From: Aliiroseovarius sp. S1123 | GTDB taxonomy: Bacteria; Pseudomonadota; Alphaproteobacteria; Rhodobacterales; Rhodobacteraceae | Direction: 5' to 3' | Assembly (NCBI RefSeq): GCF_023015885.1 | Contig: NZ_JALKBE010000001.1 | Span: 558,001-622,000 of the forward strand | Length of the DNA: 64,000 bases | Part shown: one piece after another, positions 24,642 through 29,216 of the stretch | How the letters are laid out: every line of letters starts with the position of its first letter | How positions within the stretch are numbered: the first letter of the stretch is position 1 | Program-made: the position numbers and the translations under genes | Notes under the pieces: generated by a model | Databases searched by the model: none | Seen by the model: the letters and a program-made list of their open reading frames with translations, nothing else | What the model was told of the DNA's origin: nothing

Positions 24642-27125
24642 ATGAGCAGCATTGATAATGACGATCTGATTGATGATTCCGATGATGGGGTAGGCGCACC
24701 GAAAGTGCCGCTGTCGCAGCGCGCGATGGGGGCAGCTTTGGGGGCACGTTCCGCGCCCTATATGGATGGTTTGAACCCTGCCCAACGTGAAGCGGTCGAG
24801 ACGCTAAACGGCCCCGTCCTGATGCTGGCGGGCGCGGGCACGGGCAAGACCAAAGCCTTGACCACACGGATCGCACATCTGCTGACTACCGGCTCTGCGC
24901 GAACCAACGAAATTCTTGCCGTGACCTTTACCAACAAGGCTGCGCGCGAAATGAAGGAGCGTGTCGCGGGGCTGTTGGGCCAGACGGTTGAAGGGATGCC
25001 ATGGATGGGCACCTTCCACTCGATCTGCGTGAAGCTTTTGCGTCGTCACGCCGAGCTTGTGGGGCTGAAAACCAACTTCACCATTCTGGACACGGACGAC
25101 CAGATCAGGCTGCTGAAACAGCTGATTGTTGCCAATAATATCGACGAAAAACGCTGGCCGGCACGGCTGTTGTCGGGCGTGATTGACAACTGGAAAAACC
25201 GCGCGTGGACACCGGAAACGCTACCGTCTTCCGAGGCGCAGGCCTTCAATGGCCGCGGGCCGGAGCTTTATGCCCAATATCAGGAGCGGCTTAAGACCCT
25301 GAACGCGTGCGATTTCGGTGACTTGCTTCTTCACATGGTCACGATTTTCCAGCAGCACGACGACATTCTGACCAAGTATCAAAGCTGGTTTCGCTATATC
25401 CTCGTGGACGAATATCAGGATACGAACGTCGCCCAATATCTCTGGCTGCGCTTGCTCGCTGCGGGGCACAAGAACATCTGCTGCGTGGGCGATGATGATC
25501 AGTCCATCTATGGATGGCGCGGGGCCGAGGTTGGCAATATCCTACGGTTTGAAAAGGATTTTCCCGGCGCGAAGGTGGTCCGGCTAGAGCAGAACTATCG
25601 CTCGACCGCACACATTCTGGCGGCCGCGTCTGGCGTGATCGCAGGGAACGAAGGGCGTCTGGGCAAAGAACTGTGGACCGAGGCCGAGGGCGGCGAAAAG
25701 GTGCGCCTGATCGGCCATTGGGACGGCGACGAGGAAGCCCGTTGGGTCGGGGAAGAGATTGAGGCGATGCAGTCCGGTACGCGGGGCATGGCGCCGAAAT
25801 CGCTGGATGATATGGCCATCCTCGTGCGCGCGTCCCACCAGATGCGCGCGTTTGAAGACCGCTTCCTGACCATCGGCTTGCCGTATCGCGTCATCGGTGG
25901 CCCGCGTTTCTATGAGCGCTTGGAAATCCGCGACGCCATGGCCTATTTCCGGCTGGCCGTGTCGCAGGACGATGATCTGGCGTTTGAGCGCATCGTCAAC
26001 ACGCCCCGTCGCGGACTGGGCGACAAAGCGGTGCAGACGATCCAGATGCTCGCCCGCACCAATGGCGTCTCGCTGGTCGAAGGGGCCCGGATCGCTGTGG
26101 ACAGCGGTGCGATCAAGGGCAAGGGCGGCAAGGGGTTGGACGAGCTTGTCGGTAACTTGGACCGTTGGGCTAAACTGATGCTCGGGCCAGTTCTAGGCCA
26201 CTTCGATGAAGGCGAAATTGTTACTGAAGAAGGCGATATTGGCCGGGAATTCCGGACCGAATATGGCGAGCCTGAACACACTCACATCGAACTGGCCGAG
26301 ATGATCCTTGAGGAATCTCGTTACACCGAGATGTGGTTGAACGATAAGAACCCAGATTCTCCGGGGCGGCTTGAGAACCTCAAGGAACTGGTGAAGGCGC
26401 TGGAAAGCTTTGAAAACCTTCAGGGTTTTCTGGAGCATGTCAGCCTGATCATGGACAATGACACCGACGACGCGGAAGAAAAAGTCACGATCATGACCCT
26501 GCACGGCGCCAAAGGGTTGGAGTTTCCCGCCGTGTTCCTACCGGGCTGGGAAGATGGGCTGTTCCCGTCTCAGCGCTCGATGGATGAAAGCGGGTTGAAG
26601 GGCTTGGAAGAAGAACGTCGGCTGGCCTATGTGGGCATCACGCGGGCGGAAGAGGTCTGCACGATCTCTTTCGCTGCCAATCGCCGTGTTTATGGCCAAT
26701 GGCAGTCGCAGTTGCCCTCGCGTTTCGTCGATGAGCTGCCCGAGGACCACGTTGAAGTGCTGACCGCGCCCGGGCTTTATGGCGGTGGCTATGGCGGCAT
26801 GTCGGGCGACTACGGTGGCTCGCGTCTGGAAGAGAAAGCCAGCCGTGCGGATGCATATAATTCGCCGGGTTGGAAGCGGATGCAAGCGCAGGGCAATCTG
26901 CGCGCGAAACCCGCCCCGAACGAGGCAAAAGGCCTAGTGATCGACGCCACCGCTGTGTCGTCCTTTACACAAGGCGACCGCGTGTTCCACACCAAGTTTG
27001 GCTATGGCACCGTGATGGGCATCGAAGGCGACAAGCTGGATATCGAGTTCGACAAGGCAGGTGCCAAGAAAGTCGTCTCGAAGTTCATTGTGCCAGCCGC
27101 ACAAGCGGGCGACGTTCCCTTCTAA
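24642..27125 (+). CDS. uvrD: UvrD/PcrA-type DNA helicase
   Basis: A protein of 827 aa, superfamily 1A 3'-5' helicase. A Q motif (LNPAQREAV), Walker A AGAGTGKT at residues 63-70, VTFTNKAAREMKERV, DEYQDTN near residue 255, GDDDQSIYGWRGA, LEQNYRST, TLHGAKGLEFPAVF and YVGITRAEE are all present. The C-terminus ends in the Tudor-like RNA-polymerase-binding unit (GDRVFHTKFGYGTVMGIEGD), as in PcrA/UvrD. It acts in mismatch and nucleotide excision repair. It converges with the CcsR-like RNA array on the other strand, 26 bp beyond its stop. Confidence 0.95.
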   Translation: MSSIDNDDLIDDSDDGVGAPKVPLSQRAMGAALGARSAPYMDGLNPAQREAVETLNGPVLMLAGAGTGKTKALTTRIAHLLTTGSARTNEILAVTFTNKAAREMKERVAGLLGQTVEGMPWMGTFHSICVKLLRRHAELVGLKTNFTILDTDDQIRLLKQLIVANNIDEKRWPARLLSGVIDNWKNRAWTPETLPSSEAQAFNGRGPELYAQYQERLKTLNACDFGDLLLHMVTIFQQHDDILTKYQSWFRYILVDEYQDTNVAQYLWLRLLAAGHKNICCVGDDDQSIYGWRGAEVGNILRFEKDFPGAKVVRLEQNYRSTAHILAAASGVIAGNEGRLGKELWTEAEGGEKVRLIGHWDGDEEARWVGEEIEAMQSGTRGMAPKSLDDMAILVRASHQMRAFEDRFLTIGLPYRVIGGPRFYERLEIRDAMAYFRLAVSQDDDLAFERIVNTPRRGLGDKAVQTIQMLARTNGVSLVEGARIAVDSGAIKGKGGKGLDELVGNLDRWAKLMLGPVLGHFDEGEIVTEEGDIGREFRTEYGEPEHTHIELAEMILEESRYTEMWLNDKNPDSPGRLENLKELVKALESFENLQGFLEHVSLIMDNDTDDAEEKVTIMTLHGAKGLEFPAVFLPGWEDGLFPSQRSMDESGLKGLEEERRLAYVGITRAEEVCTISFAANRRVYGQWQSQLPSRFVDELPEDHVEVLTAPGLYGGGYGGMSGDYGGSRLEEKASRADAYNSPGWKRMQAQGNLRAKPAPNEAKGLVIDATAVSSFTQGDRVFHTKFGYGTVMGIEGDKLDIEFDKAGAKKVVSKFIVPAAQAGDVPF

Positions 27126-27150: not shown

Positions 27151-27192
27151 AAAAAAAACGGCGCCGCTCGGGAGGAGGAGAGCGACGCCGTT
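27151..27192 (-). ncRNA. CcsR-like hairpin 8, also the array terminator
   Basis: Stem AACGGCG (27157-27163) with CGCCGTT (27186-27192), with an inner GCT/AGC pairing; motif at 27170-27178. On the minus strand the stem runs into eight T (27151-27158), so this copy doubles as an intrinsic terminator for the DUF1127-CcsR transcript. Confidence 0.85.
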
Positions 27193-27204
27193 TCCTATTT
27201 GGTC

Positions 27205-27230
27205 GGACCTCTGGGAGGAGGAGTGAGGCC
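27205..27230 (-). ncRNA. CcsR-like hairpin 7
   Basis: The weakest stem: GG-A-CCTC (27205-27211, bulged A) with GAGGCC (27225-27230). Motif at 27213-27221 in the loop. Confidence 0.68.
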
Positions 27231-27240
27231 CGGCGCTGTG

Positions 27241-27268
27241 ACCCGGGTCGGGAGGAGGTGACCCGCGT
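27241..27268 (-). ncRNA. CcsR-like hairpin 6
   Basis: Stem ACCCGGGTC (27241-27249) with GACCCGCGT (27260-27268), one mismatch; the 10-nt loop is the motif plus one base (27250-27258). Confidence 0.8.
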
Positions 27269-27278
27269 CAGATCGGTT

Positions 27279-27302
27279 CGTTCCTGGGAGGAGGGTGGAA
27301 CG
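27279..27302 (-). ncRNA. CcsR-like hairpin 5
   Basis: Perfect 6-bp stem CGTTCC (27279-27284) with GGAACG (27297-27302); motif at 27286-27294. A short CCCC/GGGG hairpin (27303-27317) lies between this copy and hairpin 4. Confidence 0.78.
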
Positions 27303-27319
27303 CCCCGAAATTTGGGGGT

Positions 27320-27353
27320 GCGGTGATGTCAGGGAGGAGGAAGACATCACCGC
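27320..27353 (-). ncRNA. CcsR-like hairpin 4
   Basis: Perfect 11-bp stem GCGGTGATGTC (27320-27330) with GACATCACCGC (27343-27353). The 12-nt loop holds the motif at 27332-27340. This is the most regular member. Confidence 0.85.
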
Positions 27354-27360
27354 GACCCGA

Positions 27361-27387
27361 GGACCGTCAGGGAGGAGGAGACAGTCC
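27361..27387 (-). ncRNA. CcsR-like hairpin 3
   Basis: Stem 27361-27367 with 27381-27387 (GGACCGT/ACAGTCC, one mismatch). Motif at 27370-27378 in the loop. Confidence 0.78.
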
Positions 27388-27397
27388 GAAGATTTTG

Positions 27398-27433
27398 GGC
27401 AGCGAGACCCGGGAGGAGGAGGACCTCGCCGCC
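27398..27433 (-). ncRNA. CcsR-like hairpin 2
   Basis: Stem core GCGAG 27402-27406 with CTCGC 27425-27429, extended outward by GGC/GCC past one mismatch. Motif at 27411-27419 in the loop. Confidence 0.78.
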
Positions 27434-27439
27434 ATTCAT

Positions 27440-27470
27440 GTTCACCGCCGGGAGGAGGAGAGCGGGGAAC
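27440..27470 (-). ncRNA. CcsR-like hairpin 1
   Basis: Stem 27440-27448 with 27462-27470 (plus strand GTTCACCGC/GCGGGGAAC, one mismatch); the motif at 27450-27458 is in the 13-nt loop. It starts 7 bp after the DUF1127 stop, so processing of the shared transcript is needed to free it. Confidence 0.8.
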
Positions 27471-27476
27471 AGAAAC

Positions 27477-27692
27477 TCAGTTGCCGTAAACGGCCATGCG
27501 GGCGATCAGGCGGATCGAACCGCGACCGATACCCAGATCGTTCAGCTCACGATCGCTCAGGTTGCTCAGTTCCTTGACGGTCTGGCGATATGCCTGGCGC
27601 GTGGCGAAGTTGTCTTTCCAACCAGCAATCAGGGAGACGAACCGGTCAGCCAGGCTTGCGTGGGCCAGAATGATTTCAGATGCGTGTGCCAT
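27477..27692 (-). CDS. DUF1127 small protein, CcaF1-like
   Basis: A 71-aa protein ending in the DUF1127 motif LSDRELNDLGIGRGSI, preceded by a helix rich in polar residues. In Rhodobacter sphaeroides the DUF1127 protein CcaF1, encoded just upstream of CcsR RNAs, binds RNA and affects processing of its own transcript. The same order is seen here: eight CCTCCTCCC hairpins begin 7 bp after the stop. The leader sequence upstream may carry a heat-shock-type promoter. Family confident; RNA binding inferred from the relative. Confidence 0.9.
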   Translation of the reverse strand: MAHASEIILAHASLADRFVSLIAGWKDNFATRQAYRQTVKELSNLSDRELNDLGIGRGSIRLIARMAVYGN

Positions 27693-28142
27693 TGCACTTA
27701 CTCACTTTCGAATGCAGATATCTGCCGGATGGGTGCCCGAAACTCTGGGCAAAACTCTTCTTGTTAGCGACAACGTTATCGCTGTGAGACAAACATGGGG
27801 GTTATGCTGCGAATGCACAATACCCCGCAAAAACAAACCCGACATGCGTCTGGCGCATAGGTAAAATAGCCATAATAATAGGCGTTTAGGAGCGATCTGG
27901 CTGCGCATTGCCTTCAAATGCTGCAGAGCAGAAAGAATGGCCTTCTGCGTGCCGTAGGGTAAGTTTTCGTCTTAAAGTTCCTGCCTTAAAACTGGGCACT
28001 ACTTAATGTGGGGTGTGATGGGATGACTGGGCCTTCAAAAGGGGATGAGTGATTCCCTTTGCTGAGATTTGACTGATTGATTAGCCCCTTGCGCGTCCGT
28101 AGAAAGTCGCCAAGTAAAGAGGTCAGGATCAAGGAGACTTCA
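27693..28142. other. Intergenic region between DUF1127 gene and mrp
   Basis: A 450-bp divergent gap. Besides the heat-shock promoter candidate I see no gene, no tRNA and no strong hairpin. The right part must carry the mrp promoter, which I could not place with confidence. Confidence 0.5.
27793..27820 (-). promoter_or_regulatory. Candidate heat-shock-type (RpoH) promoter of DUF1127-CcsR unit
   Basis: On the minus strand TTGTGC, 14 nt, then CCCCATGT. The -10 matches the sigma-32 consensus CCCCATNT fully; the -35 keeps only TTG of CTTGAAA. The R. sphaeroides counterpart is known to depend on RpoHI/RpoHII. The start would be near 27785, about 95 nt ahead of the ATG. Confidence 0.35.
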
Positions 28143-29216
28143 ATGGCGGATGTAAAAGACGGGATAATGGGCGCGCTGTCGGCAGTGGCGTTGCCGGATG
28201 GTGGCGATCTTGTGTCGCGCGACATGGTGCGTGCGCTGACGGTCGACGGGGCTGCGGTGCGTTTCGTGATCGAGGCGCAATCGCCCGAGCAGGCCGCGGG
28301 GTTGGAACCACAGCGCCGTGCGGCCGAAGCCGCCGTCGCCGATTTGCCGGGGATTGAAACCGTATCTGTCATTCTGACTGCGCATGGTGCCGCGCCTGCA
28401 AAGCCTGCGCCTAACCTTAAGATCGGCGGGCACCCCAAGCCGCAAGCTGGCCCGATGCCGGTCCCGGGTGTGAAGTCGATTGTTGCGATTGCCTCGGGCA
28501 AAGGGGGCGTTGGGAAATCCACGCTCAGTTCAAACCTTGCCGTGGCGCTGGCAAAGCAGGGGCGGAAAGTCGGGCTTTTGGATGCGGATATTCTCGGGCC
28601 CTCTCAGCCGCGCATGATGGGGACCAATGAGCGCCCCGGTTCCCCTGATGGTGACATGCTGACCCCGGTCATGGCGCATGGGGTCAAGATGATGTCCATC
28701 GGCTTGATGTTGAAATCGGATCGCGAGGCCGTGGTCTGGCGCGGGCCGATGCTGATGGGAGCGTTGCAGCAGATGCTGTTTCAAGTCTCGTGGGGGCCGC
28801 TTGATGTGCTGCTGATCGACCTGCCGCCTGGAACCGGCGATGTGCAGCTGACCTTGGCGCAGAAATCGCAGATCACCGGGGCGGTCGTGGTTTCGACCCC
28901 GCAAGACGTTGCGCTTTTGGATGCCCGCAAGGCGATCGACATGTTTGAGAAGGTGAAAGTGCCGATCTTGGGGCTTGTCGAGAACATGTCCGCCTATGTC
29001 TGTCCGAATTGCGGTCACGAGGCGCATCTGTTCGGGCATGGCGGGGTGAAGGACGAAGCAGTGGCTATCGGTGCGCCCTTCCTTGGGGAAATCCCGCTGT
29101 CTCTGGATGTGCGGCTTGCAGGCGACGGTGGAACGCCCATCGCGGCGGGTGAAGGGCCGGTGGCTGATGCCTATGCCAAGCTAGCGCAAGATATGGTGGC
29201 ACGCGGGATCGCCTGA
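28143..29216 (+). CDS. mrp: Mrp/ApbC-type iron-sulfur cluster carrier ATPase
   Basis: A protein of 357 aa from the ATG at 28143 ([10 protein letters not shown]), with AAGGAG before it; the longer frame from 28077 is not supported. Residues about 1-85 form an MIP18/FeS-assembly domain. The deviant Walker [11 protein letters not shown] begins near residue 118, followed by [16 protein letters not shown] and [15 protein letters not shown]. The CPNCG pair that holds a bridging cluster is near residue 284. It carries Fe-S clusters to apoproteins in the cytoplasm. A strong terminator follows. Confidence 0.93.

Follow-up and report, generated by a model that had tools for sequence, protein, structure and literature searches.

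The window analysed here, a 64-kb stretch of DNA from the marine bacterium Aliiroseovarius sp. S1123, contains eight exact copies of CCTCCTCCC on the minus strand between positions 27170 and 27458 (289 bp) and none elsewhere. Shuffled sequence contained 0.66 copies on average and 3 at most, and none of 100 shuffles reached eight; the whole genome has 13 copies, 8 of them inside the array. Directly upstream of the array, on the same strand, lies an open reading frame (ORF) for a CcaF1-like DUF1127 protein, a small member of a family that binds RNA. The ORF ends 18 nt short of the first motif (Table 1) and gave no match to the NCBIfam models. The initial annotation had described eight copies on the minus strand within 290 bp, behind a DUF1127 gene, and number, span and gene order were all confirmed. 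A UvrD-like helicase gene (24642-27125) is convergent with the array, and an ORF for an Mrp-type ATPase (28077-29216) lies in divergent orientation to the locus. The genome has three more DUF1127 matches (G000:C11:529098-529208, minus strand; G000:C14:331244-331342, plus strand; G000:C19:105286-105390, minus strand), and beside these three no RF02344 match above the cut-off was found.

Table 1. Features of the array locus, in the direction of the minus strand (positions are those of the window)
Feature	Position	Strand	Remarks
Promoter block	27790..27821	minus	ATTGTGCA-N3-GCAGCA-N5-CCCATGTTTG; putatively RpoH-like
DUF1127 gene, CcaF1-like, 71 aa	27477..27692	minus	PF06568, 43.7 bits (cut-off, 23.3)
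Hairpin 1	27440..27470	minus	loop motif 27450-27458
Hairpin 2	27398..27433	minus	loop motif 27411-27419
Hairpin 3	27361..27387	minus	loop motif 27370-27378
Hairpin 4	27316..27358	minus	loop motif 27332-27340
Hairpin 5	27274..27307	minus	loop motif 27286-27294
Hairpin 6	27239..27270	minus	loop motif 27250-27258; first hairpin of the RF02344 match
Hairpin 7	27204..27232	minus	loop motif 27213-27221; inside the RF02344 match
Hairpin 8 and T8	27151..27193	minus	hairpin 27193-27156; loop motif 27170-27178; T8 27158-27151

The 342-nt array stretch folded with -155.7 kcal/mol, compared with -113.6 kcal/mol (standard deviation, 5.16) for shuffled sequence (z = -8.16), and none of 100 shuffles was as stable. 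All eight 9-mers were unpaired in the loop of their own hairpin, as had been annotated, with mean unpaired probabilities of 0.98 to 1.00 in the ensemble, compared with an average of 0.26 at the remaining array positions. Indeed, CCUCCUCCC was unpaired in the adjacent loops of all eight hairpins, the arrangement by which cuckoo / alpha-r14 RNAs are recognized, and the stem sequences are unlike from copy to copy, with pairing retained. Hairpin 8 overlaps the T run with no gap between them and is probably a motif hairpin and a terminator in one, in agreement with the initial annotation. It was not among the calls of a simple terminator scan of the window, probably because the scan is limited to loops no longer than 8 nt, and the loop of hairpin 8 has 10 nt. 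The RF02344 model likewise closes with a motif hairpin followed by U.

The Rfam models were run over the region with the Rfam gathering scores of 58.8 for RF02344 (ar14) and 65.3 for RF02791 (CcsR1). The sole match in the window at gathering was RF02344 at 27276-27154, with 75.8 bits, covering hairpins 6 to 8, and no second place in the genome was above this cut-off. With relaxed thresholds, a second RF02344 match was seen near hairpins 1 to 3 (51.2 or 41.8 bits), and RF02791 matched hairpins 1 and 2 (27476-27394) with 32.7 bits and hairpins 7 and 8 (27242-27153) with 33.6 bits, all of these being below gathering. Of the expected fit to the cuckoo-type models, the part concerning ar14 thus held and the part concerning CcsR1 did not, and the array was therefore not filed as CcsR1 itself. 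Among nine related loci, CcsR1 was found at gathering in two from Cereibacter (L055 and L081) and ar14 in three (L029, L064 and L083); L004, L057, L059 and L062 matched neither CcsR1 nor ar14 at gathering, and L062 is itself an Aliiroseovarius array (from genome G164).

Conservation of the structure was analysed in a MAFFT alignment of seven Aliiroseovarius arrays; the eighth, that of G164, was omitted because its stems align poorly. In this alignment, 96.3% of the 588 cells were paired and both sides had changed in 23 of the 84 pairs, in line with the earlier description of stems that differ and still pair. The covariation score was 0.281, versus 0.163 in shuffles, and none of 500 shuffles scored as high; the measure of further pair types was not above the shuffles for the same seven arrays, 399 of 500 being as high. 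When the partner was slid by 1 to 3 columns, pairing was 36 to 46% and only 1 to 5 pairs were two-sided, a comparison in which the tested structure has an advantage, having been derived from one of the aligned sequences. All eight Aliiroseovarius arrays inspected have eight hairpins, and of their 64 loops, 61 contain the exact 9-mer CCTCCTCCC and all 64 contain CTCCTCCC. The three exceptions all belong to G164 and keep only CTCCTCCC; since only the first C is gone, the true core is suggested to be an 8-mer. In an ungapped, loop-anchored comparison, no more than 330 of 448 best matches fell on the hairpin at the same position, partly because of one-base indels in the loops. The position-by-position orthology of the hairpins therefore rests on the MAFFT alignments, in which hairpins 5 and 6 of two genomes (G012 and G051) align poorly.

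The promoter block upstream of the DUF1127 gene is identical at 24 of 24 fixed positions to the blocks of two Cereibacter loci (L055 and L056). A search of the genome contigs with the exact pattern ATTGTGCAN3GCAGCAN5CCCATNTTTG yielded 44 stretches, and all 44, although found by the promoter block alone, had loops within 700 nt downstream. The first loop was 309 to 435 nt from the block in 43 stretches and 110 nt from it in one (L090), and a DUF1127-like ORF lay between block and loops in 43 of the 44 when a loose motif was applied and in 39 when a strict one was used. L090, from Sinirhodobacter populi, has nine loops starting 110 nt past the promoter block with no DUF1127-like ORF between and is possibly an array that lacks the protein gene. 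A conserved box, TTGTGCA-N3-GCAGCA, separates the presumed -35 and -10 elements, and a similar block is present in L055, L056, L070 and others. The box is better conserved than would be expected of an RpoH promoter alone; possibly, another regulator uses it as an operator. In eight genomes, TTGTGCAN3GCAGCA had nine matches, six at arrays and three elsewhere.

The initial annotation held that the array has twice the copies of its counterpart in Rhodobacter (Cereibacter) sphaeroides, a claim contradicted by the counts. The RF02791 model has 83 nt, and its full-length match (106.2 bits) in L055 and L081 takes in the first two loops only. With CcsR1 being a two-hairpin RNA, four CcsRs imply eight loops if CcsR2 to CcsR4 are alike, and this likeness we infer from the four pairs in Cereibacter johrii: strain JA192 has exactly eight loops in four pairs, with spacings of 39, 66, 37, 76, 39, 74 and 39 nt. 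The same eight-loop locus is found on two contigs of this one assembly (L081 and L107), perhaps an assembly duplicate. Genome G094 (L055), which we took to be R. sphaeroides 2.4.1 since its PufL is 100% identical over 281 aa, has 14 loops in seven pairs; the count in C. johrii stands independently of this naming. Five of the seven two-hairpin units in G094 share an identical loop-to-loop string, and the difference between these seven units and the four CcsR RNAs of the literature could be due to strain, assembly or definition.

In the 44 stretches with the promoter block, counts of the core CTCCTCCC gave 3 to 13 loops with a mode of 8 (12 of 44), some of the counts being minimum values from records that end soon after the promoter. 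The 12 stretches with eight loops include four from Aliiroseovarius and two from C. johrii; after removal of the four Aliiroseovarius stretches and of one of the two C. johrii contigs, the mode was still 8 (7 stretches), followed by 9 (5 stretches). Eight loops are the ordinary size for a ccaF1-CcsR locus, and the array is not unusually expanded as had been supposed.

We also surveyed 390 genomes of the order for adjacent pairs of strict motifs 15 to 45 nt apart. At least one such pair was present in 352 of the 390 genomes, with a range of 0 to 19 per genome; the genome of strain S1123 has 7, a number that is reached or surpassed in 60 genomes (its own included) and surpassed in 32. Because strict motifs at this distance are demanded, the survey gives too low a count where gaps are wider or loops are degenerate. 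In ten genomes without a strict pair, TTGTGCAN3GCAGCA had 12 matches, of which 7, in seven genomes, were followed by at least four copies of CTCCTCCC within 900 nt. The reversed pattern, run as a control, was also found in 82 of the 390 genomes; in part, this is because the reversed motif is present within loops such as CCCTCCTCCTCCC. The control was zero in 31 of the 60 genomes with at least 7 pairs. The longest arrays inspected in full have 23 (G152), 20 (G015), 17 (G222) and 16 (G236) loops. The CCTCCTCCC arrays with 23 and 20 loops (L057 and L058) are far above the array lengths given in the literature consulted. In 65 genera with at least two genomes (316 genomes), 85% of the variance in pair number lay between genera, versus an expected 20% and a maximum of 35% in 1000 shuffles; pair number is a trait of the genus.

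The 16S rRNA of strain S1123 ends with GGATCACCTCCTTT (14 bases at the end of the SSU rRNA match), which has CCTCCT in common with the loops, and the resemblance of the loops to the anti-Shine-Dalgarno (anti-SD) end, already pointed out in the annotation, was thus borne out. GGGAGGAG was found 3 to 13 nt before an ATG at 9 sites in this genome (2 for the reversed pattern) and at 48 sites in G094 (6 for the reversed pattern). What the excess of 9 over 2 demonstrates is the use of SD sequences rather than regulation, and the sites of all candidates may simply be strong SD sequences. By Pfam, the nine candidate-target ORFs of strain S1123 encode an AraC-type regulator, an AMP-binding enzyme, a glyoxalase-like protein (spacer of 11, perhaps not the true start), SoxA, a TRAP DctQ subunit, a sulfatase, a YCII protein, a DUF4212 protein and PanB. 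Three of the nine sites recur in G012, namely, those of SoxA, PanB and the glyoxalase-like ORF with its long spacer. Comparison with the 48 sites of G094 gave one cross-match, in which AMP-binding ORFs were weakly similar (25% identity, E = 9e-6); ATGs opening ORFs of fewer than 60 aa had been dropped from the target comparison (9 of 48 in G094, 2 of 8 in G012 and 0 of 9 in strain S1123). These matches point only weakly to targets conserved between genomes. Two nearby sites in G094 precede genes for a PQQ methanol/ethanol dehydrogenase (TIGR03075) and a methanol-metabolism cytochrome (TIGR03874), and if they are targets, they would fit the published role in C1 metabolism.

The best explanation is that the array is the Aliiroseovarius ccaF1-CcsR locus (cuckoo / alpha-r14, "CIN1") and works as outlined below; we give this reading a probability of roughly 0.83. 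As proposed in the annotation, the layout is that of ccaF1-CcsR1-4: the array has an RF02344 match above gathering and shares with Cereibacter the DUF1127 gene, the promoter block and the CCUCCUCCC hairpins in the 3' UTR, and C. johrii has eight loops as well. However, the hairpins of Cereibacter are paired with wide gaps of 65 to 76 nt between units, whereas those of strain S1123 are evenly spaced (36 to 46 nt) and could be processed differently. The terminator hairpin described here keeps the motif, whereas the array of the inferred R. sphaeroides is followed by a similar hairpin whose loop, judged by eye, is degenerate. The alpha-r14 family, to which NfeR1 belongs, likewise has three consecutive CCUCCUCCC hairpins with a terminator-like last one, but NfeR1 is a three-hairpin RNA with a sigma-70 promoter (PMC10746234), and the present array has eight hairpins in the 3' UTR of a DUF1127 gene. 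A conserved loop, variable stems and the association with DUF1127 are also features of the cuckoo family or CIN1 as described in papers that cite Reinkensmeier and Giegerich (2015); cuckoo RNAs are defined by two to four hairpins per RNA (PMC4504443), whereas eight lie here in one stretch of DNA.

In R. sphaeroides, ccaF1 is controlled by RpoHI/RpoHII (PMC10253847) and cotranscribed with CcsR1-4, the transcript is processed by RNase E and CcaF1 (PMC10253847, PMC8625941), and CcsR1-4 are active in stress and C1 metabolism (PMC10253847, PMC8625941, PMC8307010). In Sinorhizobium, the loops of NfeR1 are described as pairing with translation starts (PMC10746234, PMC7143759) and silencing ntrB at its translation start, the three loops being redundant (PMC10746234). 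By analogy with both organisms, for transcription and processing as well as for targets and a role in stress, one stress-type (RpoH-like) promoter would drive the DUF1127 gene together with the eight hairpins in its 3' UTR, the loop number of four two-hairpin CcsR units, with the last hairpin also serving as terminator. The transcript would probably be cut into small RNAs by RNase E with the help of the DUF1127 protein. The unpaired CCUCCUCCC loops, being like the anti-SD end of 16S rRNA, would pair with the SD regions of mRNAs and block their translation. Invariant loops with compensating stems fit pairing of the NfeR1/CcsR type, in which the loop is the working part and the stem only presents it. 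The copies would act as redundant seeds, and how many there are may determine the dose of small RNA that each transcript yields. The near-invariance of the loops fits such dose-setting seeds and not the diversification of targets that had been suggested as one outcome of the repetition. That loop number sets the dose is what we infer; an amplified dose, also suggested, is possible.

CsrB and RsmZ are sponge RNAs with many hairpins and one repeated loop motif, GGA. The array shares this layout, but its motif is anti-SD and not GGA. Near-identical loops, drifting stems and 3 to 23 repeats would be a suitable architecture for a sponge whose identical loops bind the DUF1127 protein, Hfq or another protein instead of or besides mRNA, and CcaF1, encoded on the same transcript, is described as an RNA-binding protein (PMC10253847). 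However, the transcript of R. sphaeroides is cut into separate small RNAs (PMC8625941), and mutation of the three loops of NfeR1 abolishes the silencing of ntrB (PMC10746234); we regard a protein sponge as quite unlikely. Unlikely, too, is that the intact multi-loop transcript is functional, and not only its cleaved units, as a multivalent decoy with loop number as an evolved rheostat; its ligands would be mRNAs with SD sequences, Hfq or the DUF1127 protein encoded on the same transcript, and loop number, a genus-level trait, goes up to 23.

Hairpins that only stabilize the DUF1127 mRNA and terminate its transcription, the loop motif being incidental, would account for the terminator-like last hairpin and the position of the array directly behind the gene. 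Yet the 9-mer is kept in 61 of 64 loops while the stems change with compensation, and since a stabilizer needs no loop sequence, we consider this very improbable. Least credible is that the lineage recently doubled a four-copy CcsR cluster for dose or wider targets: its genome does lie in the upper part of the survey for adjacent strict pairs, but more pairs are found in 32 genomes, CcsR1 already has two hairpins, C. johrii has 8 loops and the inferred R. sphaeroides 14, the mode in the 44 stretches is 8, and all eight Aliiroseovarius arrays inspected have eight hairpins, with loops so nearly invariant that they count against diversification. A recent expansion, or a "double CcsR1-4", was ruled out by the copy counts.

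The locus, the loop motif and the DUF1127 partner of the ccaF1-CcsR system are already published. The span of loop numbers and their stability within genera may be new: in a literature search limited by missing subscription papers, we found no family-wide survey of loop number, although one may exist. As to the count itself, CcsR1 has two seed loops and a cluster of four CcsRs would have about eight, and an eight-loop array is the standard form. Since loop number varies widely between genera and more narrowly within them, these arrays offer a natural series with which to ask whether the number of seeds sets the strength of regulation.
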